A stretch of DNA of 23,931 nt, from the IMG/VR virus record IMGVR_UViG_3300021963_000646, positions 1-23,931 of that record; one strand, given 5' to 3'. Each line of letters starts with the position of its first letter. The stretch's first letter is position 1. Of the stretch, positions 2,391 to 21,925 are shown piece after piece. The notes under the pieces were generated by a model. It saw only the letters and a program-made list of their open reading frames with translations, did not search any database and was not told the DNA's origin. The translations under genes and the position numbers were made by a program. The DNA is from a virus.

Positions 2391-2460
2391 CAAAATAAAA
2401 TAAGTTGTAATTTTTATTTGATTTATGTGTAAAAATATTTAACAATAACAAAATTATTAC

Positions 2461-2468
2461 TATCTTTG
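2461..2468 (+). promoter_or_regulatory. Bacteroidota-type -7 promoter element for the HNH gene
   Basis: The plus strand reads TATCTTTG, 18 bases before the ATG at 2487, with an A-rich leader between. It lies back to back with the minus-strand promoter at 2383-2390. Confidence 0.65.
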
Positions 2469-2486
2469 TAAAAAAATATAAATAAA

Positions 2487-3116
2487 ATGGAAGAATTAAA
2501 TTTAAAAAAGTGTACTAAATGTTACGAGGAAAAAAGTGTAGAATTGTTTTATTCTGGAAGGGCAGAATGTAAAAGTTGCAGTAAAGCAATAAGAACTAAA
2601 AGATATAAGGACAATCCTGAAGTACAAAAAGAAAGAAGTAGAAAAAGAAGAATAGAAAAAAATGAAGAAATAAATCAATACCTAAAAGAATGGAGGCTAA
2701 ATAATAAGGATAAGCAAAAAAAATATAATGAAGATAGATGGAACAACAAAAGAGATGAATGCGTAGCTAGAAACAAAAAATATTGGGCTGAAAATAAAGA
2801 AAAATACTCTGAAAAGAGCAAGGAATATCGCAAGAACAATAAAGAGATATTAGCTAAAAAAAACTCAGAATATCAAAAGAAAAGAAGTAAAGAAGATGAA
2901 CTTTATAGATTAACAAAAATATATAGAACAAGAACAAAGATTGCTTTTAAACAAAAAGGATTTAATAAACCAACAAAAACAACTGATTTAATAGGGTGTA
3001 GTCCATTAGAGTTTAAAAATTACTTAGAGTCTAAATTTACAGAAGGAATGACTTGGGAGAACAGAGGGTTAAAAGGATGGCATTTAGACCACATAATCCC
3101 CATTGTCGTCTGCTAA
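2487..3116 (+). CDS. HNH homing-type endonuclease, truncated by frameshift
   Basis: The frame encodes 209 residues. An N-terminal zinc ribbon is visible (C9, C12, C28, C31), followed by a long lysine/glutamate-rich helical DNA-binding region with repeated tyrosine-containing units (about residues 40-140), then the start of an HNH domain: W198, H199, D201, H202 in the motif WHLDH. The frame then ends abnormally in VVC and a TAA, just where the rest of the catalytic domain should follow. The missing half continues in the next frame at 3106-3210. Removing one C from the CCCC run at 3098-3101 restores the canonical HIIPLSSAK and a single 240-residue protein. Free-standing HNH genes of this type spread by cutting related genomes. 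As written the nuclease is unlikely to be active. It is one of three plus-strand genes in the window and converges on the capsid gene. Confidence 0.8.
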   Translation: MEELNLKKCTKCYEEKSVELFYSGRAECKSCSKAIRTKRYKDNPEVQKERSRKRRIEKNEEINQYLKEWRLNNKDKQKKYNEDRWNNKRDECVARNKKYWAENKEKYSEKSKEYRKNNKEILAKKNSEYQKKRSKEDELYRLTKIYRTRTKIAFKQKGFNKPTKTTDLIGCSPLEFKNYLESKFTEGMTWENRGLKGWHLDHIIPIVVC

Positions 3117-3210
3117 AAATGAAGAAGAATTAAAAACTTTGTGTCACTTCACTAATATTCAACCTCTTTGGTGGCAGGATAATTTAAGGAAAGGCAGTAG
3201 TATTGAATAG
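3106..3210 (+). pseudogene. Detached C-terminal part of the HNH endonuclease
   Basis: In the frame shifted by one base, codons from 3106 read SSAKNEEELKTLCHFTNIQP, then LWW and QDNLRKGSSIE with a TAG stop at 3208-3210. This is the usual second half of the phage HNH domain: a central helix, the conserved asparagine (N in TNIQPLW), and the final NLRKG motif. It has no start codon of its own and is intelligible only as the continuation of the upstream frame. Either the gene is genuinely broken or the C run at 3098-3101 carries a sequencing or assembly insertion. Confidence 0.75.
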
Positions 3211-3241
3211 AAAAAGGAGAGGTTTATATCCTCTCCTTTTT
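3211..3241. terminator. Bidirectional intrinsic terminator between HNH and capsid genes
   Basis: A perfect 12-base-pair stem, AAAAAGGAGAGG (3211-3222) and CCTCTCCTTTTT (3230-3241), encloses a 7-base loop. The stem starts right after the HNH stop and ends 29 bases before the capsid stop. The flanking A and T runs provide a T-tract in both directions, so it can end both convergent transcripts. Confidence 0.85.
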
Positions 3242-3270
3242 ATTTTATGTTGCTGAATATCAGCTAATTA

Positions 3271-4629
3271 TCAACCTTTAACGAGCACAAAATTGTTACG
3301 ACCCATCGTACATAAGGCTCTTTCCGTCAACATGTGCATTTGGTTAGCGTCTAAGTCAGAGTTGTTAGCTCCACCTGCTGAACCAGTAGCCCATACTTTA
3401 TAACGTCTATCTTCAGTAGCAGACTTACGGTATTTAACGTGTAAGAATGGTAAAGTAGCATTAGCTCCTAAAACTTCATCTCTAACTGTTTTTGTTCCAG
3501 AAGGACATAGAACAGAATTGATTGCAGAGTTACCAGTGAATAAACCACGAGCAGTTGGGTCATCTAAGTATTTCCATTGAGATTTGTAGATTTCGTAACC
3601 AGCAACTTTGAAACCTGAGAAACCTAAGTTTAAAGCTGTATCCTCGCTGTTATTGAAAGCTCCGTAAGAAGTACCTCCAACACCATAAGAATTTTGAGCA
3701 GCTAACAAGTAATCAATAGCTCTATCTTGTTCGAAATCATTCATCATCATATATTCAGAAATAGCACCTTGTTTATTTAAACGAGATAAGATTTCATCTA
3801 CATCATCCATAGTAGAGATTACACCAGAGAATACGTTACCTTGAGCAACAGCTTCGAAGAAACCTTCAGTACCTGTGTACCCAGCAGTAGCAGCAGCAGA
3901 ACCACTTTCGAAAGAAACACCCTCTACCATACCCATCTCGATATAGTCATCAAATCTTTGACGAGATTGCGCTCTTGATTTTAAGTACCATAAGTACCCA
4001 TTACCGTCTTCTCCTTCAACTTCAATCCAACCAACTTGAGCCATATCAGAACCATTAACTTCATCTAATTCTTTGATGATGATTGGTTTGTTGTCAAAGA
4101 TGTCTGGAGTAGCCTCTAAGGATTCAGCTCTACCATTAGTTCCTTTTCTATACTCATTAGAGTAAGTAAATACATTGATTCCTGTAGCAGCTAAAGCACC
4201 AGCATTACCAGCAGTACCAAAACCAGCAGATGTAGAAGCAGCAACTGTAAATGTATTTGCGTCTTCCGCTGTTACAATACCTTTCATTTCAACTGTACCG
4301 TCATTTAAGATTACAGTATCATTTAAACGGAAAGAATGTCCATTTAAAGTAAATACAGCTCCTGAACGAGTTACACCTGTACCAACTGGTCTTAAACGAC
4401 CTTCTTCAGACCATTTAATTAAGTCAGATTGGATAGCCATTTCTTGACCCATTTTCTCTAAGAAACCTTTTAATGATTGATTTCCGTAACGAGCGAATTC
4501 TTTCTCATACAATTCAGGTAAGAATTGATTTGTGAAGTCGAAATCAGAAGCATCTAAGTAGTTGCTATTTAAGATTTCTTTTGTTGCAGTAGGAGTTAAT
4601 TTTACTCCTGGACTTGAATTTAATGCCAT
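3271..4629 (-). CDS. Major capsid protein, HK97 fold, crAss-like
   Basis: The 452-residue protein builds the icosahedral shell. The strongest evidence is the C-terminus: a segment with LPFLHVKYRKSATEDRR, then a TGSAGG turn, then DLDANQMHMLTERALCTMGRNNF, closely matching the conserved end of crAss-like capsid proteins. Length fits that family (about 450-500). The N-terminal part is helical (roughly residues 15-75), and residues 80-165 form a Gly/Ala/Thr-rich strand region likely to be the E-loop or an inserted domain. The gene lies 36 bases downstream of the scaffold-like gene with no obvious promoter; the leader on the coding strand is almost pure A with a CACACACA stretch, typical of strongly translated Bacteroidota genes. 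The stop is TGA, followed by the strong terminator at 3211-3241. Codon choice is slightly richer in GC than its neighbours, as expected for an abundant protein. Confidence 0.93.
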   Translation of the reverse strand: MALNSSPGVKLTPTATKEILNSNYLDASDFDFTNQFLPELYEKEFARYGNQSLKGFLEKMGQEMAIQSDLIKWSEEGRLRPVGTGVTRSGAVFTLNGHSFRLNDTVILNDGTVEMKGIVTAEDANTFTVAASTSAGFGTAGNAGALAATGINVFTYSNEYRKGTNGRAESLEATPDIFDNKPIIIKELDEVNGSDMAQVGWIEVEGEDGNGYLWYLKSRAQSRQRFDDYIEMGMVEGVSFESGSAAATAGYTGTEGFFEAVAQGNVFSGVISTMDDVDEILSRLNKQGAISEYMMMNDFEQDRAIDYLLAAQNSYGVGGTSYGAFNNSEDTALNLGFSGFKVAGYEIYKSQWKYLDDPTARGLFTGNSAINSVLCPSGTKTVRDEVLGANATLPFLHVKYRKSATEDRRYKVWATGSAGGANNSDLDANQMHMLTERALCTMGRNNFVLVKG

Positions 4630-5740: not shown

Positions 5741-8182
5741 TTATCGTGGTTCAAATTCTGATAAAGAAAACCCATCAAGACTATCTTCATTACTCTCGAA
5801 TGACACCGCAGGTAAATCTTTTTTACGTTGCTCTATCATCTTAGATTGCTGTGTAGCTTGTAACTTTGTTCTCTCGTCTTTTCTATCTTCCTTCATTTGC
5901 TCTTTGGTCTTCATACCATCAACCTCAATCCCTTTAAGTTGCATTTGGTATCCAAACTCTTTTTCCATAAGCATAAGCTTCATTTCAACTTCAGCCTTCA
6001 TCTTCTCTATCTCAGCAGCTACTCTTGCTTGTTCAACCATAGCCTTACTCTGACCCTCTAACTGAATTAACTGAGCCTTACCTTCTGAAGCAGCTTGAGC
6101 AGATTGCATATTACCTTGAGTTTGAGCATTAATCTCTTGCATTTTTTGCTCTTGTCTCTCCTTCATTCTTTTCTCCTTCTTAATAGAAAGGTATTTAGAT
6201 GCTAAGGATAAATTCTTAATACCAAGAATAGCGTACTTATCTTCTACTCCAAGATTACCTTGTTGAATTTCAAATGTAATATCTCCTTCTAATTTAGCTC
6301 TCTCTTCTTCATCAGGTGTTAATTCGATATTAATTGCGAAGTCGTGAATATACATATTCTTAATCTTATCCAACGCTGTAACATTGTTAGCTGATATTTT
6401 ATTTATCAAGTCTTGTTTGGTCTCAGAGAATTGTAATACGTCTGCAATACGAATTGTAATACATTTAGCTAACTCTCTAGTTACAAACATACTACCTGCC
6501 AATATGTGTCTTGTTGCTACGTTTGAGGAATACGCTGCCATCTTTTGAATACCAACTAAACTATTCTTATCAGGGTTACTAGCATCAATAGCTTGATTAA
6601 TTCCTGTTACAGAAGCAATCATATCCATAGATATCTGAATTGAATTCCATAACGAACTAATCTTATCTTGACCAGATGAATGTCTAATTTCTTGAATAGG
6701 TACTTTAGCGTTATTAAATTCACCGCCTACGTTAGAACTTCTACCGATAACAGAACCTGTTTGGAAGTACATATTCATTGCATCTTCTACGGTATATTTA
6801 TTTCCACCACCAAGATTAATACCTACTAGTCCATCAACATCAATGTATTGACCATCAGGAACAACTCTTTGTTTTATTTGCTGTAGTTTTAACCAAGACA
6901 TTTGAATATCATCTGCAAATGGTATCATTCTATTTACAGTTGAGTCGATATGTCCTTTATACATTTTAGGAGCAATACCAATGTAGTTAGGCTGTACTTT
7001 GTTTAGGTTTGATTTCTCCTTAACCATATTCTTACAAACCTCCCACTTTAATAAGATATTTGTACCTAATACTAATATACCTTCAAACCACACTTCTTCA
7101 ATCTTTGTTAACTTCTCGAAGTCAGCATCTCCTGTTCCTTTATATACAAAGTCATTGTCTTTTGCGATAACTTTTAATCCACCCTTTGAATTCTTCTTCT
7201 TCTTCCAAACTTTCTCTCTTGAGGTTTTATAGTTAAAGTATAACAAACCTAATTTACCATCTAATACATCTTGAGATTGACCATTAAGGTTTAATTCATA
7301 GTAGTTGTTCCAAGATGAAGATATACTTTGTAATCTTTGTTTTTGTTTTTCAGTTAGATTTGGAAACTCCTTATAAACTTCTGATAGGTTTGTATTCTTG
7401 TATTCACCATAGTAGAAGCAATCTTGAAAGTAAGGGTCTTCTGTATATGACCAAATTAAGTTTGCAGGGTCAACGTATTCGATTTTAATTCCGTCTCCAG
7501 GAACAAATCTATGTTTTCCAAAACCAACACCAATCTCAATTATATCCTTCTCTATTTTTCTTCTTGTAATTTCGTTGTAGTTGTTCTCTTTAAATACCGT
7601 TTCAACAGCTATCTCTACAGCTTGTTCAATTGGTGGCTTAAATTCAAACTCCATCTTAATATCTATTTCATCTTCACTTTCTGGTATCTGATCTAAAGGA
7701 ACAGAAGCTAAATCAAAACCTGTTTGTTTCTTAGCCTCTATAATAAAATCCTTAGCAATCATATCTGTCTTAAGATTCTCTCTTTTCTTTGATTTTTCTT
7801 CAACAGATGTAGGGTCTACTGCAATAGCATTAATAGAGAATTCTCTCTGAGCCATTCCATTAGCAATTATATCTACATACTTAGGGATAACTGGTATAAC
7901 CTTCCAATCTAAATTCAAATAAGACATATCTCCATTAACAGCGAAGTACTCCTTATATCTTGCAACACTCTGCAATCCATTAGCATACATTCTTCTCTTG
8001 TGAAATTCGTCTCTTTGTTGATAGTACTTACAGTTTTGACCTTCTCTCTTAAACCACTCGTATTGAATGGCTTCAGCAACTTGTCTACCAAAATCACTTC
8101 CCTTTTGAACCTCAAATGGTACGTTTTGATTTGGAAAACTTCTGTAAGTAATGGAAATACCTTCCGCTTTCTTCTTTATCAT
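5741..8182 (-). CDS. Portal protein, crAss-like
   Basis: The 813-residue product fits the large portal proteins of crAss-like phages, which form the dodecameric DNA channel at one capsid vertex and dock the terminase. It lies 8 bases downstream of the TerL gene, the standard portal position. The N-terminal 60% is a mixed alpha/beta region with the portal-like stretch on either side of MIPFADDIQMSWLKLQQ. The last 150 residues are Q/E/K-rich and strongly helical (for example VEQARVAAEIEKMKAEVEMK), consistent with a long coiled coil or barrel and a basic tail. No frameshift or interruption is seen. The start at 8182 is the only ATG close to the TerL stop. No alternative family fits this size and location. 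Confidence 0.85.
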   Translation of the reverse strand: MIKKKAEGISITYRSFPNQNVPFEVQKGSDFGRQVAEAIQYEWFKREGQNCKYYQQRDEFHKRRMYANGLQSVARYKEYFAVNGDMSYLNLDWKVIPVIPKYVDIIANGMAQREFSINAIAVDPTSVEEKSKKRENLKTDMIAKDFIIEAKKQTGFDLASVPLDQIPESEDEIDIKMEFEFKPPIEQAVEIAVETVFKENNYNEITRRKIEKDIIEIGVGFGKHRFVPGDGIKIEYVDPANLIWSYTEDPYFQDCFYYGEYKNTNLSEVYKEFPNLTEKQKQRLQSISSSWNNYYELNLNGQSQDVLDGKLGLLYFNYKTSREKVWKKKKNSKGGLKVIAKDNDFVYKGTGDADFEKLTKIEEVWFEGILVLGTNILLKWEVCKNMVKEKSNLNKVQPNYIGIAPKMYKGHIDSTVNRMIPFADDIQMSWLKLQQIKQRVVPDGQYIDVDGLVGINLGGGNKYTVEDAMNMYFQTGSVIGRSSNVGGEFNNAKVPIQEIRHSSGQDKISSLWNSIQISMDMIASVTGINQAIDASNPDKNSLVGIQKMAAYSSNVATRHILAGSMFVTRELAKCITIRIADVLQFSETKQDLINKISANNVTALDKIKNMYIHDFAINIELTPDEEERAKLEGDITFEIQQGNLGVEDKYAILGIKNLSLASKYLSIKKEKRMKERQEQKMQEINAQTQGNMQSAQAASEGKAQLIQLEGQSKAMVEQARVAAEIEKMKAEVEMKLMLMEKEFGYQMQLKGIEVDGMKTKEQMKEDRKDERTKLQATQQSKMIEQRKKDLPAVSFESNEDSLDGFSLSEFEPR

Positions 8183-8190
8183 TTTTTACT

Positions 8191-10821
8191 TTATTTATTA
8201 TAAGTCTTAAAATTTATAACTATATCCTCAGCTACTTTTTGAACTGGAGCATACATTTTTCTATTTACTGCCATTATAGCTAAACCAGAGCTAATAGAGG
8301 CATCAAATTTTGTTCTATTATTAATATCAAACTTCATCCAATCCTTCAGTGTGTCATTAAACACTATATTCTGTGGCACTTCATCGTCATCTACATTACT
8401 ACCAACATATTTCTCTATGTAAGATTCAATAGCTGTTGCGTGCATCTGCTTAACATCTTCAGAGGAGTTAGGCATACCTCCTAATTCTTTCTCTGTTGGT
8501 GAAAGCCTGTTCTCAGCCTTATCGAATCTTGTTATACTAAAGCCTCTATAACCTCTATTCTTAAAGTGATATAATAAACGTGGCTTATTGTTCTCTGCCA
8601 ATATAGGCATACCATAAAATACACACGCCATTAATACATCTTCAAAGAATATCTCTGCGGTCTTCGGTCTTGCTACATACTCTAAGAAGAACGTATGATT
8701 AGGTGCATTAGAAAAACTAAATCCTGTTAGTCCGTGTAAAGCTCCTTTTGAAGCTCTATTGGTGTCTTCATCATAAGACCCGTCTTTTCTAACGCCTTCT
8801 ACTGTTCCTGATATATCGTATGTATCACAACCGAAAGCCCCTATATCTCCATTTAATGGATATTTTGAGTGTCCTCCTGGACCACTTTTTGTTTCAAATT
8901 TATTCCTCATTTCTTCAGGTGGTATCCAAGATAGCTTAAATCTCCCTTTTTCATTAGGATGAAAATCAACTTTAGTATCTCTAACACCATATCTCCATTG
9001 GAAATTACCAACCGCAATTTTGCTATCAGCATCGTGGTCTTCATTTATCTTTATTTGATCTATTATCTTTTCTATGTTAAAGGTAGATTGTAATAATTCA
9101 TCTCTAAAGGCTTCGTCTATAGTCATAGGAAATGCTCTTAATTCCTCATTATAAGAAATATCACTTTCCTTTCTCTTACTACTTCTTTTAGCCTCTAGGA
9201 ACTGAACACTACCAATAGTCTTCTTATCACCATACACATTGTAATAAAAACTACCCTTCTCTATAACTTCGTGGCAAACACCATATTTATCTGTAAATTC
9301 CTCCATATTCTTGTGAGCTGGAAGAAAGTACGAATATAAACCTGATGGTGTTCTACCTGTAATCTTATTTCTCTTCTTAATACTTGATGACTTATAAAGT
9401 TTAAAGAATTCCTCTCCACCCTTATTCATTGCATTAACGGTTGAGCCTATAAATGCCTTACCTACAATTTTACCACCTGTATCAAATGTTGGTGATACTT
9501 GACCCCAATGCTTCTCGAAGTTAGCGGGCTTTTCCCACTTAGATGCCTCATCTCCAAGATATCTAAACATCTTTTGACCATCATAAGCTGAATCCTTTGT
9601 TGGTAAAAAGTCTACTAATGTATTTAAGTAGTCATCTGTATTTGTATCTCTGTTCTTCTTAGATAATTTACTCTTATCTTGCGGTCTCGCAAAGTCTAAT
9701 GCTTTCTTAGAATCTTCGATACCCCTTACAATAGGCTTAAAGAAGAATGGTAAATTAAGGAATGCGTAACTAAACTTAGAGAATGCCTTTGCAGCATCAT
9801 CATTAGTCTTTGATGTCATACCTATCCTTGCATTTGAAGTTGAGGTTGCATCATTAAGTAATTGACATATAATTTGATATGTATAACCTGTACGTCTTGA
9901 CTTTACAAATAATTCTCCTAAACATCGAGGGTCTACAATACAAGCCTCTGTGAAATAAAACATATCTCTTTGGGCTGTCCTGAAGTCCATATATCCACCT
10001 GAATCTTCCATCTTTACCCATTGAAGTGCAAAGTAGTGACTACCAGTTAGGTATTGAGGTTTTCCATTATTCATAAACCAAATACCCTCTCTTCTTCTTC
10101 TAAATTCCTCTATAATGTATTCGGTATACGCTTCTGCATTTTCTTGAGATAAACCACTTGGTACATCTAATCTTCTCCAATATTGATCTTCCTTCTTTTT
10201 ATCCCAAAATAATATATCTTTTCTGTAAGGTACTTTCGGCAGAGTTATATTTAAACCACTAAGATTTATTACTTCACCTTTTGTACCATTAGGGTCTAGT
10301 ATGATTGAGTCATTTTCTTCATCATACCATTCCTTATAATAGTTCTTTCTTGGTAGAAATTCTCCGCAAGCAAACTTTTCAGGATACCCTCTCTTAAATT
10401 CATTCTCCTTAAGATTAATTTTATCAGCATCTATCTGTAGTCTTAATTCAATAAGTGATGAATCAATTTCTACAATCGCTTGGTGAATTGAAGGCTTAAC
10501 TGAAATAGCTAAGTGGTGTTTTGAAGGATCTAAATCATCGTAGTCAATCTTTGAACGTAAAGCGTCTCTAAGGACTCCTAAGGCAATATCTCCAGCCTTA
10601 ACAAGTCTTACTACATATTTCTTGAATTTATCCTCAGAGGGAGCGTTTGTGCTATTCTGCCATCTAAGTAGTAATTCTTTACCATACTTAAATGAATCGA
10701 CTTTGGCTTTTACAATAGTCTTTACCTTATCAGGTTCAATTAAAGACATATCAGTGCTATACTCTAATCCTTCGATTACAGTTTCAACAGCTATCTCTAT
10801 ATCTTTACTTAATCCTATCAT
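8191..10821 (-). CDS. terL: Terminase large subunit (DNA packaging ATPase-nuclease)
   Basis: The 876-residue protein drives genome packaging. A Walker A-like segment VKSRRTGYT lies at about residues 306-314, Walker B RYLGDEA at 420-426, and a coupling-type GST at 459-461. The C-terminal RNase H-like nuclease shows the expected acidic residues: D666 in GCDTYD, E743 in PILAEN, and D840 in KFDASISSGLA. An N-terminal extension of about 250 residues precedes the ATPase, as in other large crAss-like terminases. No small subunit gene is recognisable nearby. The start overlaps the stop of the upstream tandem GroES-like gene by four bases (ATGA), so the two are translationally coupled. Portal follows 8 bases after the stop. 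The sequence-based assignment is strong. Confidence 0.92.
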   Translation of the reverse strand: MIGLSKDIEIAVETVIEGLEYSTDMSLIEPDKVKTIVKAKVDSFKYGKELLLRWQNSTNAPSEDKFKKYVVRLVKAGDIALGVLRDALRSKIDYDDLDPSKHHLAISVKPSIHQAIVEIDSSLIELRLQIDADKINLKENEFKRGYPEKFACGEFLPRKNYYKEWYDEENDSIILDPNGTKGEVINLSGLNITLPKVPYRKDILFWDKKKEDQYWRRLDVPSGLSQENAEAYTEYIIEEFRRRREGIWFMNNGKPQYLTGSHYFALQWVKMEDSGGYMDFRTAQRDMFYFTEACIVDPRCLGELFVKSRRTGYTYQIICQLLNDATSTSNARIGMTSKTNDDAAKAFSKFSYAFLNLPFFFKPIVRGIEDSKKALDFARPQDKSKLSKKNRDTNTDDYLNTLVDFLPTKDSAYDGQKMFRYLGDEASKWEKPANFEKHWGQVSPTFDTGGKIVGKAFIGSTVNAMNKGGEEFFKLYKSSSIKKRNKITGRTPSGLYSYFLPAHKNMEEFTDKYGVCHEVIEKGSFYYNVYGDKKTIGSVQFLEAKRSSKRKESDISYNEELRAFPMTIDEAFRDELLQSTFNIEKIIDQIKINEDHDADSKIAVGNFQWRYGVRDTKVDFHPNEKGRFKLSWIPPEEMRNKFETKSGPGGHSKYPLNGDIGAFGCDTYDISGTVEGVRKDGSYDEDTNRASKGALHGLTGFSFSNAPNHTFFLEYVARPKTAEIFFEDVLMACVFYGMPILAENNKPRLLYHFKNRGYRGFSITRFDKAENRLSPTEKELGGMPNSSEDVKQMHATAIESYIEKYVGSNVDDDEVPQNIVFNDTLKDWMKFDINNRTKFDASISSGLAIMAVNRKMYAPVQKVAEDIVINFKTYNK

Positions 10822-11360
10822 AAATGCAGTATAATTCTATTTTGATTAATCATATACAACTTCTCGTCAAATATCTTGAACTCGTATTCTGAATCTTTCT
10901 TAACTCCAATCAATGAACCTTCTTTTATGTCAGACATATCTTTGTTCTTGTATTTTAAGATACATATCTGTTCATTCTCTTTATATCCTTCGTATTTGTC
11001 ATTAATAGTTGTAGGCTCTATAAAACAAAATGGAGGTAATGCAATTTTATTATCCCCTTTTATAACCATATAAGCTAATTCCTTCTCAACATAAAATAAG
11101 TCATCTTTAATATGATATTTACTCTCCAAAGGAAACCCTTGATTATTATATTGAATTCTAAAGGTATTGTGGTGTACAACTATTGTATCTCCAACTTCTA
11201 CGTCTCCTTCATAACCAACAGGTGTTGATATTACCTCTGCTAACCTTTGAGTGAAGTTGTGGTCCTCAACAGATATATTTAAAATTAATCCATTAGATGA
11301 ATTATTCGAATACCTCTCTTTATTAAGCGGTCTAACTATAAAGTAATGTGGACTCCTCAT
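10818..11360 (-). CDS. Tandem GroES-like protein (two co-chaperonin barrels)
   Basis: The 180-residue product appears to contain two GroES-type beta barrels. In the first (about residues 5-101) the order of elements follows GroES: YFIVRPL at the start, a mobile-loop-like SSNGLIL (21-27), AEVISTP, then DVEVGDTIVVH (53-63), and a final strand LFYVEKELAYMVI. The second (about 106-180) repeats the pattern without the loop: FCFIEP, EQICILKY, SDIKEGSLIGVK, KLYMINQNRIIL. Known GroES relatives with two barrels exist in plastids (Cpn20), and phage T4 gp31 is a diverged single-barrel relative. Co-chaperonin function for this gene is inference from the alignment by eye. It lies 4 bases after a small gene and overlaps terL by 4 bases, so it is produced together with the packaging motor. 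Confidence 0.6.
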   Translation of the reverse strand: MRSPHYFIVRPLNKERYSNNSSNGLILNISVEDHNFTQRLAEVISTPVGYEGDVEVGDTIVVHHNTFRIQYNNQGFPLESKYHIKDDLFYVEKELAYMVIKGDNKIALPPFCFIEPTTINDKYEGYKENEQICILKYKNKDMSDIKEGSLIGVKKDSEYEFKIFDEKLYMINQNRIILHL

Positions 11361-11364
11361 AAAA

Positions 11365-11589
11365 CTATAATTGTGTATAATATTCGATATGAATTACATT
11401 GCTTAAATTAAAAGACTTCCATATAGCCTTTACATCGCTATCTATTTCCTTTACATAGATGTCAAAGAACATGTCTTCCTTTATTATATCTGAAACTACT
11501 CCAGAACCACTAAACACATTGCTGTTAACCTGGTAGTGCATAATATTATTATTATCCATCTTAACGGATATTTTTCTTACTAAATTCAT
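11365..11589 (-). CDS. Small conserved-looking protein of unknown function
   Basis: This 74-residue protein is the first gene of the packaging/head operon. It follows a clear promoter at 11614-11621 and ends 4 bases before the tandem GroES-like gene. It is a compact alpha/beta sequence with a hydrophobic C-terminal half (DMFFDIYVKEIDSD, then VIHIEYY) and no cysteine, zinc site, signal peptide or membrane segment. I do not recognise the family. Its place directly upstream of terminase genes makes a small terminase subunit or regulator conceivable, but it lacks the helix-turn-helix look of known TerS proteins, and I would not name it so. Confidence 0.6.
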   Translation of the reverse strand: MNLVRKISVKMDNNNIMHYQVNSNVFSGSGVVSDIIKEDMFFDIYVKEIDSDVKAIWKSFNLSNVIHIEYYTQL

Positions 11590-15721: not shown

Positions 15722-15970
15722 TTACCATAATTTTGTGCAAGCTAAATGTCTTGGCGTTCCAGGTTTAGCTGTAGCACACTTGTGTCTTGCGTGAAAATTC
15801 TTTTTTCTTTTACTATCCTTATGTTTTGTGAAATCAGAATACCCTTTAGCGCCTGCGTGAACTAAAGTTTCCTTTCCGTTTACACAATACTTCTTCATTA
15901 TCTTCTTTCCTGGTCGAGTAGATTTCCTAACCTCTCCACACTTCATGTTGCTTTTTACTGATTCTCCCAT
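15722..15970 (-). CDS. Small basic virus protein (DUF5754-like)
   Basis: From the ATG at 15970 the product has 82 residues and is strongly basic. The central pattern KKYCVNGKETLVHAGAKGYS followed by DFTKHKDSKRKKNFHARHK matches a short protein type found in phages and giant algal viruses, usually listed as DUF5754 or similar and thought to be virion-associated; I recall this pattern from memory and could not check it. A longer frame to 16036 exists, but the promoter at 15989-15996 lies inside it, which rules out that start. It is the first gene of the appendage-lysis operon and is divergent from groEL. A nucleic-acid-binding or core role would fit its charge. Confidence 0.65.
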   Translation of the reverse strand: MGESVKSNMKCGEVRKSTRPGKKIMKKYCVNGKETLVHAGAKGYSDFTKHKDSKRKKNFHARHKCATAKPGTPRHLACTKLW

Positions 15971-15988
15971 AATTTTAATAAATCTCTG

Positions 15989-15996
15989 CAAAGATA
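15989..15996 (-). promoter_or_regulatory. Bacteroidota-type -7 promoter of the appendage-lysis operon
   Basis: The minus strand reads TATCTTTG, 19 bases before the ATG at 15970. It lies 16 bases from the oppositely directed groEL -7 element. Confidence 0.7.
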
Positions 15997-16012
15997 CGAA
16001 ATAAAAAAAGTG

Positions 16013-16020
16013 TATATTTG
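16013..16020 (+). promoter_or_regulatory. Bacteroidota-type -7 promoter of groEL-groES
   Basis: The plus strand reads TATATTTG, 23 bases before the groEL ATG, with an A-rich leader. No CIRCE or other heat-shock inverted repeat is visible between it and the start. Confidence 0.65.
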
Positions 16021-16043
16021 CAATATAAAAAATCAAATTTATT

Positions 16044-17606
16044 ATGGTTATAAAAGAAGTTAAATTTAATCAAGAAGCAAAAGAGCCTTTAATCAAAGGT
16101 ATCTCAACGGTTTGTGATGCAGTCGCTACAACTATGGGATATAGAGGTAGAACAGTATTAATTGAGAGTTCAGGAGGACTACCAATAGTTACAAAGGATG
16201 GTGTATCAGTAGCGGAAAGTATTTTCCTTGAAGATGCAACAGAAAGTTTGGGTTGCGAGTTTGTAAAACAAGCTTGTAGAAAAACAGTCAATGAAGCAGG
16301 TGATGGTACAACTGGTACAGCTGTACTTACAAAGGCAATTATCGACAATAGTCAGAAGTATTTAAAGAAAGGTGAATCAGCAATCGATTTAAAGAATGGT
16401 ATTGACTTTGCTGTAAAAGAAGTTGTTGAGTACATAAAGAGTACATCTAAAGAGGTAGACGATTCGTACTTGTTTGATGTTGCAAGAATATCTGCAAACA
16501 ACGATTCTGAATTAGGGGAGATAATTGCAAAAGCCTTTATATCTGCTGGTAAGAATGGCGTTGTATCTTACGAGCAATCAGAAAGTTCAGAAACCTATTT
16601 AGACTTTATTGATGGTATGCCAATTGCAAGAGGATATGAATTTGAGGGGTTTGTAAATAAACCAGAGAATAGATCAATTGAGTTTAACAACAACCCTTTC
16701 ATCTTACTATCAAACAGGAGATTTCAGAACATCACCGAATTACTTCCTGTTATAGAATTTTGTCACCACGCAAAGAAAGAGCTACTTATTATCTCTGAGA
16801 TGGAGTTTGAGGTTATGAAGGTTTTGTATGCTAACAAAAAGAATGGTCTTAAGGTAGCTACAATTATACCACCAAGTATAGGTGAGAAGCGTAGAGATTA
16901 CTTAACTGACATTTCCTTGGCAACAGGTGGTTTAATTATTGATTTAGATACCTCTACAAATATTGAAGGGTACGATATGAATGAATTACTTGGTAAATGT
17001 AGTCGATTGACTGTAAGTAAAGATGATACTGTATTGTTCTTTAATGAGAAACCTAATGCAGATAGGGTTCAATCAAAGATTGAAGAGCTAAACAAAGTAA
17101 TTAAGAATTCAAACAACAATTTAGAAAAAGAATATCTAAGAGACCGTATCTCAAAATTAGCTTGTGGTGTTTCTGTAATTAAGGTTGGAGGAACAACTGA
17201 AGTAGAAATTAAGGAGAAGATTGATAGAGTAGATGACGCAATTAATGCGGTTAAGAGTGCGATATCAGAAGGTGTAGTTGTAGGAGGTGGTTTAGCGCTA
17301 TATAACGCCTCTTTAAAGCTCGTTCCTGTATTAAAGGGATATAAGTGTCTATTAGAATCAATTCAAGCTCCTATGCGTACCATTTTAAGTAATGCTGGAA
17401 TTAAGTTAGAAGATATTGAAATGAATCTATTAACATATCAAGATAACTATGGATATGACGTTAAGGATTACGAAATTGTAGATATGTTTGAGAAAGGAAT
17501 TATAGACCCTTCAAAGGTTATTAGATTAGCCTTAGAGAATGCTGCAAGTGTAGCTACAACAGTTTTATTAACCAATACCACAATAACACATAAAAGAAGT
17601 AACTAA
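16044..17606 (+). CDS. groEL: Phage-encoded chaperonin GroEL
   Basis: The 520-residue product is a group I chaperonin that would form the ATP-driven folding ring in the cytoplasm. All three catalytic aspartates are present: D52 in VTKDGVSV, D87 in AGDGTTG, and D398 in RVDDAI. The nucleotide-binding VVVGGGLAL is also intact, while the usual LGPKGR loop is changed to MGYRGR. The apical domain is diverged: RGYLSPYF of E. coli corresponds to RGYEFEGF, and the PGFGDRRK stretch reads PSIGEKRR, so substrate and GroES contacts probably differ. The protein is about 28 residues shorter than E. coli GroEL and ends THKRSN without the Gly-Gly-Met tail. The stop overlaps the groES start (TAATG). This gene order is the reverse of bacterial operons. 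Both genes face against their neighbours. Confidence 0.95.
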   Translation: MVIKEVKFNQEAKEPLIKGISTVCDAVATTMGYRGRTVLIESSGGLPIVTKDGVSVAESIFLEDATESLGCEFVKQACRKTVNEAGDGTTGTAVLTKAIIDNSQKYLKKGESAIDLKNGIDFAVKEVVEYIKSTSKEVDDSYLFDVARISANNDSELGEIIAKAFISAGKNGVVSYEQSESSETYLDFIDGMPIARGYEFEGFVNKPENRSIEFNNNPFILLSNRRFQNITELLPVIEFCHHAKKELLIISEMEFEVMKVLYANKKNGLKVATIIPPSIGEKRRDYLTDISLATGGLIIDLDTSTNIEGYDMNELLGKCSRLTVSKDDTVLFFNEKPNADRVQSKIEELNKVIKNSNNNLEKEYLRDRISKLACGVSVIKVGGTTEVEIKEKIDRVDDAINAVKSAISEGVVVGGGLALYNASLKLVPVLKGYKCLLESIQAPMRTILSNAGIKLEDIEMNLLTYQDNYGYDVKDYEIVDMFEKGIIDPSKVIRLALENAASVATTVLLTNTTITHKRSN

Positions 17607-17857
17607 TGAAGGTAGTATTAAGTAACATTTTAGTTAAGGAAATTAAGGAAGACGTGAAGACAAGTAGCGGTCTTTATTTAGGAGATGGTCAAGACATTAA
17701 GTTTCACAGAGGTGAAGTAATTGAGATTGGAGAGAATGTAGATAAGGTTAATGTTGGAGAGACCATTTGGTTTGATAGACACAGAACATATCCGATTAAC
17801 TATCAAGGAATTGAATACTTGGTTATGGGGTATGAGAATGTAGTAATTGTAGAATAG
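17606..17857 (+). CDS. groES: Phage-encoded co-chaperonin GroES
   Basis: The 83-residue product matches the GroES barrel: start KVVLSNILVKEIKE, a mobile loop with the hydrophobic tripeptide LYL in SSGLYLGD (about 20-27), HRGEVIEIG, the hallmark KVNVGETIWFD (48-57), and the closing strand IEYLVMGYENVVIVE. It would cap the GroEL ring during the folding cycle. It is about 14 residues shorter than E. coli GroES; the roof region between GEVIEIG and VNVGE is reduced. Its start codon shares a base with the groEL stop, so the two are coupled. The stop is TAG, followed after 29 bases by a strong hairpin terminator. Confidence 0.92.
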   Translation: MKVVLSNILVKEIKEDVKTSSGLYLGDGQDIKFHRGEVIEIGENVDKVNVGETIWFDRHRTYPINYQGIEYLVMGYENVVIVE

Positions 17858-19975: not shown

Positions 19976-20266
19976 TTACGATACCGCAGTAACACTTTGA
20001 CTTACCCAAGCAGTAGCTGCTGTTTTTGTGTAAACTAAACCACCAGCAGAGATACTTCTACATACAACTCTTGTTCCAATAGGATTTGTTGCGTAAGTTG
20101 AGTTTAATGTTGCTAATGATAATGCAGATGTAGTTGTATTAACTACTAATGCTTGTAAATCATTTAAAGAATAATATTCAGTCTTACTATTGTTGACTGA
20201 GTCTTTTCTTTCTGTAAGATCAACTAATGTTGAATCTACACCTAAAAATTTAATTGTGCTTGACAT
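19976..20266 (-). CDS. Short fibre-module protein (N- and C-modules only)
   Basis: The 96-residue product is a miniature of the neighbouring 325-residue fibre. Its first 42 residues carry the shared head KFLGVDSTLVDLTERK and EYYSLNDLQALV. The next 54 match the C-terminal module of the longer protein (NTTTSALSLATLNSTYATN, GTRVVCRSISAGGLVY and AWVSQSVTAV). Nothing corresponds to the collagen-like centre. The fold is probably all-beta and the role virion-associated, perhaps a short fibre, fibre tip or trimerisation partner. Last gene of the fibre operon, 22 bases after its long paralogue. Confidence 0.65.
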   Translation of the reverse strand: MSSTIKFLGVDSTLVDLTERKDSVNNSKTEYYSLNDLQALVVNTTTSALSLATLNSTYATNPIGTRVVCRSISAGGLVYTKTAATAWVSQSVTAVS

Positions 20267-20288: not shown

Positions 20289-21266
20289 TTATACTACTGA
20301 GGTTATTGGCACTGATACCCAAGCGATTGGGTTTTGTTTTATATACATTAAACCTCCTCCAGATATACTAGGACATAACACCTTTGTTCCATTAGGGTAA
20401 GATGCATTTGGATACGTTGTATTTAAAGTAGATGCACTCAATGCAGATGTGGTATTATTTACCAACAAATCTGTTATAGTATATCCGTATGAAGCTCCTA
20501 TTCTTTTTCCATTATAGGTTATGTTAGTTCCTAAGACCATTTCAGCCATCCAAGAGTCACTACCTAAAGAAGTAAACTTAACTGTATCGTATGCATATAA
20601 AGAATACGAAGCAGCGCTTGAGTTCGATGAATTAATCGAAATAGTAGTTCCATCATTATAAGCCTTAATTATTAATGGATTTAAGTTGTTTGAAGAAACA
20701 GTTATAACTTTCCCTATTGGGGCGTTATTTGGTAATCTAACAATGTCATTAGATGACCCAGTAACAGTGTTTCTGTCGTATTCAAGAACATTGTACGGAG
20801 TACTTGTTCCACCAGATACTAATCCAGATGTTAATGCAGATACTATGCCTGAAGGTCCTTGAGGTCCAATTGGTCCTTGAATTCCTTGAATACCTTGCGC
20901 TCCTTGAGCTGCTAATAAAGCCCAATGTTCTGTATCTTCTTCAGGGTTTGAATTCCCAGTACCTGTTACGGCTGAAATACAAAACCAAGACGCTCCGTTA
21001 AAACCAACTGCATCATCTTCTGCATAAGAAGAGTCTGTATCCCAAGCTCCTTGCCATTCTAATCCTGCTGGTCCTACTGGTCCTGGAGGTCCTGCTGGTC
21101 CTTCTGGTCCTTCTGCACCTTGAGACCCTGTTCCTACAGCCGCTGTAATATCCTCTAATGTAAAGTATTCTGATTTTCTATCTACCTTAATACCTTTCTT
21201 TTCCGTTAGGTCTGTAAACGTAGGGTCTACACCTAAAAATTTTGTTCCACTTGGAATTGTTGCCAT
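20289..21266 (-). CDS. Collagen-like fibre protein with carbohydrate-binding insert
   Basis: The 325-residue protein has five visible parts. Residues 1-43 are the shared fibre head (KFLGVDPTFTDLTEKK, EYFTLEDI). Residues 46-68 are Gly-X-Y collagen-like repeats (GAEGPEGPAGPPGPVGPAG). Residues 69-118 read as a CBM5/12-like carbohydrate-binding unit (EWQGAWDTDSSYAEDDAVGF, ASWFCISA, HWALLAAQG). Residues 119-140 are a second collagen-like stretch (GAQGIQGIQGPIGPQGPSG). Then a beta-rich shaft leads to a C-terminal module shared with the 96-residue paralogue. Collagen-like triple helices trimerise phage fibres. The protein most likely projects from the virion and binds surface glycans. It lies 14 bases after the third paralogue. 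Confidence 0.8.
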   Translation of the reverse strand: MATIPSGTKFLGVDPTFTDLTEKKGIKVDRKSEYFTLEDITAAVGTGSQGAEGPEGPAGPPGPVGPAGLEWQGAWDTDSSYAEDDAVGFNGASWFCISAVTGTGNSNPEEDTEHWALLAAQGAQGIQGIQGPIGPQGPSGIVSALTSGLVSGGTSTPYNVLEYDRNTVTGSSNDIVRLPNNAPIGKVITVSSNNLNPLIIKAYNDGTTISINSSNSSAASYSLYAYDTVKFTSLGSDSWMAEMVLGTNITYNGKRIGASYGYTITDLLVNNTTSALSASTLNTTYPNASYPNGTKVLCPSISGGGLMYIKQNPIAWVSVPITSVV

Positions 21267-21280
21267 TTGTTATATTTTTT

Positions 21281-21925
21281 TTAAAATGTTTTACTTAATG
21301 TGAATATCTCTGAATAAATTGAGTCTGCTGCATTTGCCGAACCCCATTGAGCAGTTACATCTAATGTATTACTAATCGTTGTATCGAATGTATCATCATT
21401 TACGATACTAAAATTAGTTCCTTCAAAATTCAACCCAGAGTTCTTTGTGTATGAGAAGATACCACCAGAAGCAATAGATGCTGTACCTGCACCACCAATC
21501 GCCCTAATTGTAAAGTAAACATTGATTTCCCAATGCCTATTACTTATGGTATCTAAATCTATTATACCTGTATCGGCAAGTATTACAGAGCCTGCCTTAA
21601 TCTTTAATCTTAATGTGGCAGCTGAATTACAAGATATATGACCAATCAACTTTGCGTGATATGAATCTCCAACCTTAAATTGATTTGCAGGAACAGATAA
21701 TGATCCAACACCACTACCAATTAAACTACTCTCTGTAGCTGTATTTGCTATTGGAGTGCTACTTGTTGTTTGAGAGAATAGACCTACTAATGGATTTATA
21801 TAACCATAAATATCTTGTAGTGAGTAGTATTCTGTTTTTGCATTATTAACCCTATCCTTCTTCTCACTTAAGTCAACCTTAGAGGAATCTACACCTAAGA
21901 ATCTTGTATTGGTATCTATAGACAT
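21281..21925 (-). CDS. Fibre protein with jelly-roll receptor-binding domain
   Basis: The 214-residue protein starts with the shared fibre head (RFLGVDSSKVDLSEKKDRVN, EYYSLQDIYGYI; residues 1-43). The rest, from about residue 50, looks like the compact jelly-roll domain found at the tips of phage spikes: QTTSSTPIANTATESSLIG, SVPANQFKVGDSYHAKLIG, then paired strands with LRLKIKAG and WEINVYFTIRAIG, and a closing AQWGSANAADSIYSEIFTL. Such domains trimerise and bind receptors. Its ATG is three bases beyond the TAG of the preceding basic 44-residue gene and in the same frame. Confidence 0.75.
   Translation of the reverse strand: MSIDTNTRFLGVDSSKVDLSEKKDRVNNAKTEYYSLQDIYGYINPLVGLFSQTTSSTPIANTATESSLIGSGVGSLSVPANQFKVGDSYHAKLIGHISCNSAATLRLKIKAGSVILADTGIIDLDTISNRHWEINVYFTIRAIGGAGTASIASGGIFSYTKNSGLNFEGTNFSIVNDDTFDTTISNTLDVTAQWGSANAADSIYSEIFTLSKTF

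Follow-up and report, generated by a model that had tools for sequence, protein, structure and literature searches.

A predicted double-barrel GroES-type co-chaperonin encoded beside the terminase large subunit gene of aquatic phages

RESULTS

The window analyzed here, which is the whole 23,931-nucleotide stretch of viral DNA in IMG/VR record IMGVR_UViG_3300021963_000646, is, across most of its extent, approximately 92% identical at the DNA level to Flavobacterium phage elemo (Elemovirus) and carries, at positions 10818 to 11360 of the minus strand, a gene for a 180-residue protein predicted from ORF calling, PHROG, the profiles of its relatives, AlphaFold, and Foldseek to be a double-barrel GroES-type co-chaperonin. 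The gene itself is known and named. In elemo, Calle, phi38:1 (RefSeq), phi13:2, and Panino the terL-adjacent gene already bears the label "chaperonin cpn10" or "co-chaperonin GroES," and cpn10 is a listed core gene of the Pervagoviridae (PMC8776804). Apparently new are the double-barrel build, the constancy of the linkage to TerL, the company of a single-barrel GroES, the optional GroEL, and the lineage-dependent loops. The original prediction knew of no such protein described upstream of a phage terminase; this did not hold for the gene but did for the two-barrel build, of which we found no description for phages in the literature (CC-licensed PMC papers).

The plus strand across 10818 to 11360 is full of stops, and the ORF lies on the minus strand. 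Its product contains all four peptides that had been picked out by eye as GroES elements (SSNGLIL, DVEVGDTIVVH, SDIKEGSLIGVK, and KLYMINQNRIIL). Measured against the elemo-phage ortholog, dN/dS was approximately 0.05 in each half of the gene; the ORF is under purifying selection on both barrels and is more than a chance reading frame. Viral relatives of the protein number in the hundreds. With the Panino homolog as the query against viral contigs, nothing was found. A cellular origin was considered and rejected, as a scan of 84,980 genomes yielded 12 contigs, all of them in MAGs and likely phage.

The AlphaFold model of the window protein was built from 65 homologs and had a pLDDT of 84.8 and a pTM of 0.79, with only residues 20 to 33 below a pLDDT of 50. 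When this model was compared with solved structures using Foldseek, the top match was Chlamydomonas Cpn20 (7ekq_R; E of 1e-5, 202 columns), which covered the full length of the protein, as expected for a Cpn20-type tandem of two barrels in one chain. Cpn23 ranked next, followed by GroES of several organisms, Cpn10/Hsp10, and T4 gp31, and matches were thus obtained to all three of the folds against which a search had been proposed (GroES, gp31, and Cpn20). In the viral library, a member of the family ranked first and the cpn10 of phi18:3 second. Three BFVD entries of approximately double length or more, A0A516LTQ1 (183 aa), A0A516L046 (304 aa), and A0A8S5S075 (200 aa), were also GroES-type fold matches.

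The two halves were then considered separately. The first barrel (residues 1 to 102; positions 11055 to 11360, minus strand) had a pLDDT of 86.5 when folded alone and matched M. tuberculosis Cpn10 (probability of 0.99), human Hsp10, gp31, and Thermus Cpn10; the E-values of these matches were modest (0.04 to 0.2), and probabilities of at least 0.89 were obtained only for Cpn10, Hsp10, and gp31, with other folds reaching no more than 0.54. For the second barrel (residues 103 to 180; positions 10821 to 11054, minus strand), profile-profile comparison with GroES gave 92 to 95%, and none of 60 column-shuffled alignments was equally good, whereas the N-terminal half was weak by sequence profile (best, 23%). 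Both halves are thus predicted to be GroES-type barrels. For the second, sequence and structure agree; for the first, the prediction draws mainly on structure. This bears out the earlier claim that the GroES order of elements occurs twice in a Cpn20-like build; of the per-half profile searches proposed for it, only that of the C-terminal half was positive. An internal duplication was also sought by comparing the N- and C-terminal profiles, and this was rejected as not significant (1 of 60 shuffles was equally good).

Used as a single sequence, the window protein gave no match above the cutoff to Pfam PF00166 (Cpn10), no match in the PDB, and a weak, nonsignificant GroES match in NCBIfam. Such searches were uninformative, and the kinship with GroES is visible only via profiles and structure. 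PHROG 13932, "co-chaperonin GroES," matched residues 1 to 172 (E of 4.6e-16). Pfam Cpn10 was found at an E of 1 or lower in 9 of 24 relatives (best, 2e-6), and its cutoff was passed by the C-terminal half in phi13:2, phi38:1, and the Callevirus-like contig G010. The family profile reached solved GroES chains via the C-terminal half, at an E of only 0.12.

In the model, the disordered residues 20 to 33 (positions 11262 to 11303, minus strand) coincide with the place of the GroES mobile loop and include G24-L25-I26-L27, numbered exactly as G24-I25-V26-L27 of E. coli GroES. The glycine-hydrophobic-x-hydrophobic pattern of this loop was strict in 49 of 65 relatives and was present in 57 when one residue of slack was allowed; even the relaxed pattern was missing in the other 8, the first barrel of phi38:1 among them. 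In barrel 2 of the window protein, the mobile loop is cut to an ordered hairpin that is approximately 10 residues shorter and lies between strands of high pLDDT (residues 111 to 121 and 125 to 137), and, as the original prediction had it, only the first barrel carries a loop. The absence of a second loop characterizes the window lineage. Second barrels of the Callevirus type and of the Pachyviridae have a GroES-length loop, and no lineage examined lacked such a loop in both barrels. The second-barrel loops of the Callevirus-like contigs L026 and L027 are of the GSIIVPNSGETHKG type, that of phi38:1 is NGLRVIEEEYKG, and that of G010, which holds L026, is GSIIVPNSGETHK. In the Pachyviridae (phi13:2 type), the first barrel has ESGLEL and the second SLIYIPEDNKEK, so that in these phages a mobile loop is present in both domains, as in Cpn20. 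The second-barrel loops nearest those of Bacteroidota-MAG GroES (SGIIIPDNAKEKPQ and ETKTASGIIIPDNAKEKPQ) were those of the Pachyviridae (SLIYIPEDNKEK) and G010 (GSIIVPNSGETHK), the lineages in which the GroEL gene is absent. Host-like loops in GroEL-less lineages would be expected of a loop that has to fit whichever GroEL the phage uses; the match between loop and GroEL is a correlation across few lineages.

Outside the loop triplet, several positions were strongly constrained. Conservation in the loop region was higher at Y17, N19, E32, and R39 than in the triplet, a hint of an additional binding role or one of another kind. The HHN motif (residues 63 to 65; positions 11166 to 11174, minus strand) occupies the place of GroES residues ~67 to 69, with N65 invariant and H63 and H64 present in 90% or more of the 65 sequences compared; in barrel 2, residues S157 to F161 of the DSEYEF motif (residues 156 to 161; positions 10878 to 10895, minus strand) were likewise kept in at least 90%. 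Like Tyr71 of GroES, both motifs come after the same barrel strand, in a region that is turned toward the cage and would bear on the choice of client. Loss of the roof hairpin was considered as a gp31-like trait and was set aside: this segment is shorter than in E. coli, but it is short in Bacteroidota-MAG GroES too.

The linkage of the gene to the terminase was examined in 80 loci gathered by TerL, to avoid selecting on the double GroES itself; these came mostly from the freshwater/marine clade around MW202828. The double GroES gene was upstream of TerL on the same strand in all 78 evaluable loci, and the contigs of the other 2 end before its position. In the window, the terL gene (positions 8191 to 10821, minus strand) encodes an 876-aa large subunit that matches phrog_6681 over residues 163 to 868 (E of 5e-158). 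The minus-strand junction of the two genes reads CTGCATTTATGATAGG, in which the TGA stop of the double GroES gene is overlapped by the ATG of terL to give an ATGA at positions 10818 to 10821. The coupling to terL that had been proposed from this overlap therefore stands for the window, but in most relatives it is not literal: a helical ORF of 91 to 99 aa lies between the two genes in 121 relatives, and a long terL follows directly in 28, the window included. Among approximately 190 relatives, at least 149 have an ATGA-type start overlap, in most cases with the small ORF preceding terL. The 91- to 99-aa ORF is a candidate small terminase. It seems to be fused to terL where terL directly adjoins the double GroES gene: codons 1 to 155 of the window terL (positions 10357 to 10821) form an extra N-terminal region, the MW202828 TerL aligns only from residue 156, and a separate helical ORF lies at the place of this extension in a related locus (L029:18566-18850). 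An hhalign comparison of the N-terminal region with a separate 93-aa ORF gave only 20%, which is no more than suggestive of homology. On the other side of the double GroES gene lies a 74-aa ORF (positions 11365 to 11589, minus strand) for which no meaningful family match was found in Pfam or PHROG; an ORF of 71 to 80 aa always precedes the double GroES gene (phi40:1 gp088, MW202828, Panino, and elemo).

Farther along the minus strand are genes for the portal protein (positions 5741 to 8182; phrog_6547, E of 1.5e-130) and for a virion structural protein (positions 3271 to 4629; phrog_13704, E of 7e-105) that is probably the major capsid protein, the annotation given to its Calle counterpart. 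This position inside a structural module, adjoining terminase and portal, would suit a virion protein for head completion or decoration that has adopted the GroES fold, as the original prediction had offered in the alternative. We consider this quite improbable, since the high-probability fold matches were all to co-chaperonins and the phi40:1 homolog, gp089, is without the MS/MS structural remark that many of its neighbors carry; the phi19:3 homolog has no such remark either, and a missing remark is weak evidence for a small protein. In phi38:1, GroEL is made during infection, and methylated GroEL was also found in free-virion samples (PMC13288928); the latter may be carry-over.

Other features of the window were recorded alongside these genes. 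Positions 2405 to 3292 are missing from the elemoF relative and contain an ORF (positions 2487 to 3116, plus strand) that had no Pfam match, resembles HNH-type endonucleases in its CxxC and LDHIIPI motifs, and is seemingly frameshifted near its end. Three tandem minus-strand genes (positions 19976 to 20266, 20289 to 21266, and 21281 to 21925) encode proteins with a common N-terminal block (FLGVD...DL.E.K......EYYSL.D), the middle one having collagen-like repeats and a CBM_5_12-like stretch below the cutoff; these are probably tail-fiber or adhesin parts.

The window also encodes an ordinary chaperonin pair on the plus strand, consisting of a 520-aa phage GroEL (positions 16044 to 17606; Pfam Cpn60, E of 1e-54), which keeps the nucleotide-site motifs TKDGV, AGDGTT, and VDDA when aligned to solved GroEL, and an 83-aa single-barrel GroES (positions 17606 to 17857; Pfam Cpn10, E of 8.5e-11) with the loop KTSSGLYLGDG. 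The double GroES is thus an extra co-chaperonin, and the earlier suggestion that it is the capsid-folding co-chaperonin of the phage holds for its fold and not for its being the only one. The pair is opposite in direction to the surrounding late genes, and the same inverted cassette is found in elemo. Upstream of groEL, positions 16013 to 16020 read TATATTTG, which we take to be a Bacteroidota -7-like element, and the two genes look like a separately controlled cassette. The ORF divergent from groEL (positions 15722 to 16036, minus strand) has a DUF5754 domain (E of 2.5e-11).

A phage that has its own GroEL and single GroES might use a second co-chaperonin, with one loop per two barrels, as a decoy or modulator: it would compete with host GroES, diverting or blocking host GroEL, and would form no productive lid. 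This is very unlikely: the late, packaging-operon context and the strong constraint on both barrels are unlike those of a host-takeover factor, and relatives without GroEL would poison the machine that they need.

Among phage records, the double gene was present in 25 of 26 tested, and its 25 bearers, some of which are near-identical, close relatives, or the same phage twice, all had a separate single-barrel GroES, with GroEL in 19. Tenacibaculum phage Gundel_1 has no double gene by annotation and neither GroES nor GroEL. GroEL is therefore optional among double-GroES phages, and the gene follows TerL, not GroEL. The inventory of L026 (in G010) and of L115 to L118 (phi13:2 group) is unusual in having two GroES-family genes and no GroEL gene, which implies the use of host GroEL.

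DISCUSSION

The reading that we favor, and hold to be moderately probable, is that the window protein is a GroES-family co-chaperonin dedicated to head and packaging proteins and acting on phage or host GroEL. The loop of barrel 1 would dock on a GroEL ring at its apical domains, the ring being the phage's own (positions 16044 to 17606) in the window and that of the host in relatives that lack a GroEL gene. Once docked, the barrels would serve as the lid of the cage in which late head and packaging proteins fold, with the capsid protein as the first suspect by analogy with T4, in which gp31 serves gp23 (PMC6318259). Plastid Cpn20 and Cpn10 form mixed rings of seven domains (PMC5780408; PMC3542282), and a similar ring, in which one single GroES joins three double chains (3 × 2 + 1 = 7), would be plausible for the phage proteins. 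Counting against this reading are that such a ring would have only four loops in the window, where barrel 2 has none, that the loop triplet is not strict, and that the gene follows TerL.

In a different role, the protein would be a GroEL-independent ring cap or adaptor on the portal or terminase, or an assembly factor without a folding cycle. The best solved match is Cpn20 from the algal Cpn11/20/23 complex, which sits on a ClpP core (PMC8889267). In addition, no evaluable TerL locus was without the gene while GroEL is optional, a separate GroES already serves GroEL, and the nontriplet loop-region residues, HHN, and DSEYEF are strongly conserved. Portal rings are usually twelvefold, which is ill-suited to a seven-barrel lid; moreover, loops with the length and residue pattern of GroES have been retained, and it is precisely in the two GroEL-less lineages that they look host-like. 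Overall, we judge this role to be unlikely, and slightly more so its specific form in which a double GroES ring caps a nonchaperonin ring (portal or terminase) in the manner of algal Cpn11/20/23 on ClpP, although this form, if true, would explain both the tie to TerL and the persistence of the gene in phages without GroEL.

Whether the protein acts in the favored co-chaperonin role or as a cap, its constant linkage to TerL suggests that head assembly in these aquatic phages depends on a folding or capping step of its own. Double co-chaperonins, until now described from plastids, form a large family in the phages. The family offers a natural series, with loops in both barrels, in the first only, or mainly in the second, and with or without a phage GroEL, for the symmetry question of even-numbered lids on a sevenfold cage.

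The closest relatives of the window protein are the PHROG 13932 products of Elemovirus, Callevirus (phi38:1, phi40:1, and Calle), Baltivirus (phi13:2 and phi19:3), and Maribacter phage Panino, which belong to the same family, have the same length (180 to 200 aa), and are likewise encoded upstream of terL; nothing about them is essentially different except for the distribution of loops by lineage, and their annotation is silent on the two barrels. GroES and Cpn10 share with the window protein the barrel fold, the loop triplet, and the C-terminal-half profile, from which the window protein departs in being a fused pair, in falling below the Pfam cutoff, and in its trimmed second loop. T4 gp31 (1g31) is a phage protein with a GroES-type fold that matches both the whole window protein and its N-terminal half; it is a single barrel that forms heptamers, whereas the window protein has two barrels, and T4 uses host GroEL with gp31 (PMC6318259), unlike the phages with the double gene, which encode a GroES apart from it and in many cases a GroEL. 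By this analogy, a head-protein client is likely to be shared with gp31. Plastid Cpn20 and Cpn23 (7ekq chains R and Q) are most similar in build, with two GroES-type barrels head to tail, and both Cpn20 and the phage protein co-occur with a single-barrel Cpn10 or GroES. They differ in sequence (approximately 12% identity), in the location of the phage gene in a packaging operon, and in that apicomplexan and plant Cpn20 has mobile and roof loops in both domains (PMC3542282), while the window protein has the first mobile loop only. The double co-chaperonin structure has been described as specific to eukaryotes of plant lineages (PMC3542282); the phage double GroES is probably of independent origin, its fusion having occurred separately from that of the plastid protein.
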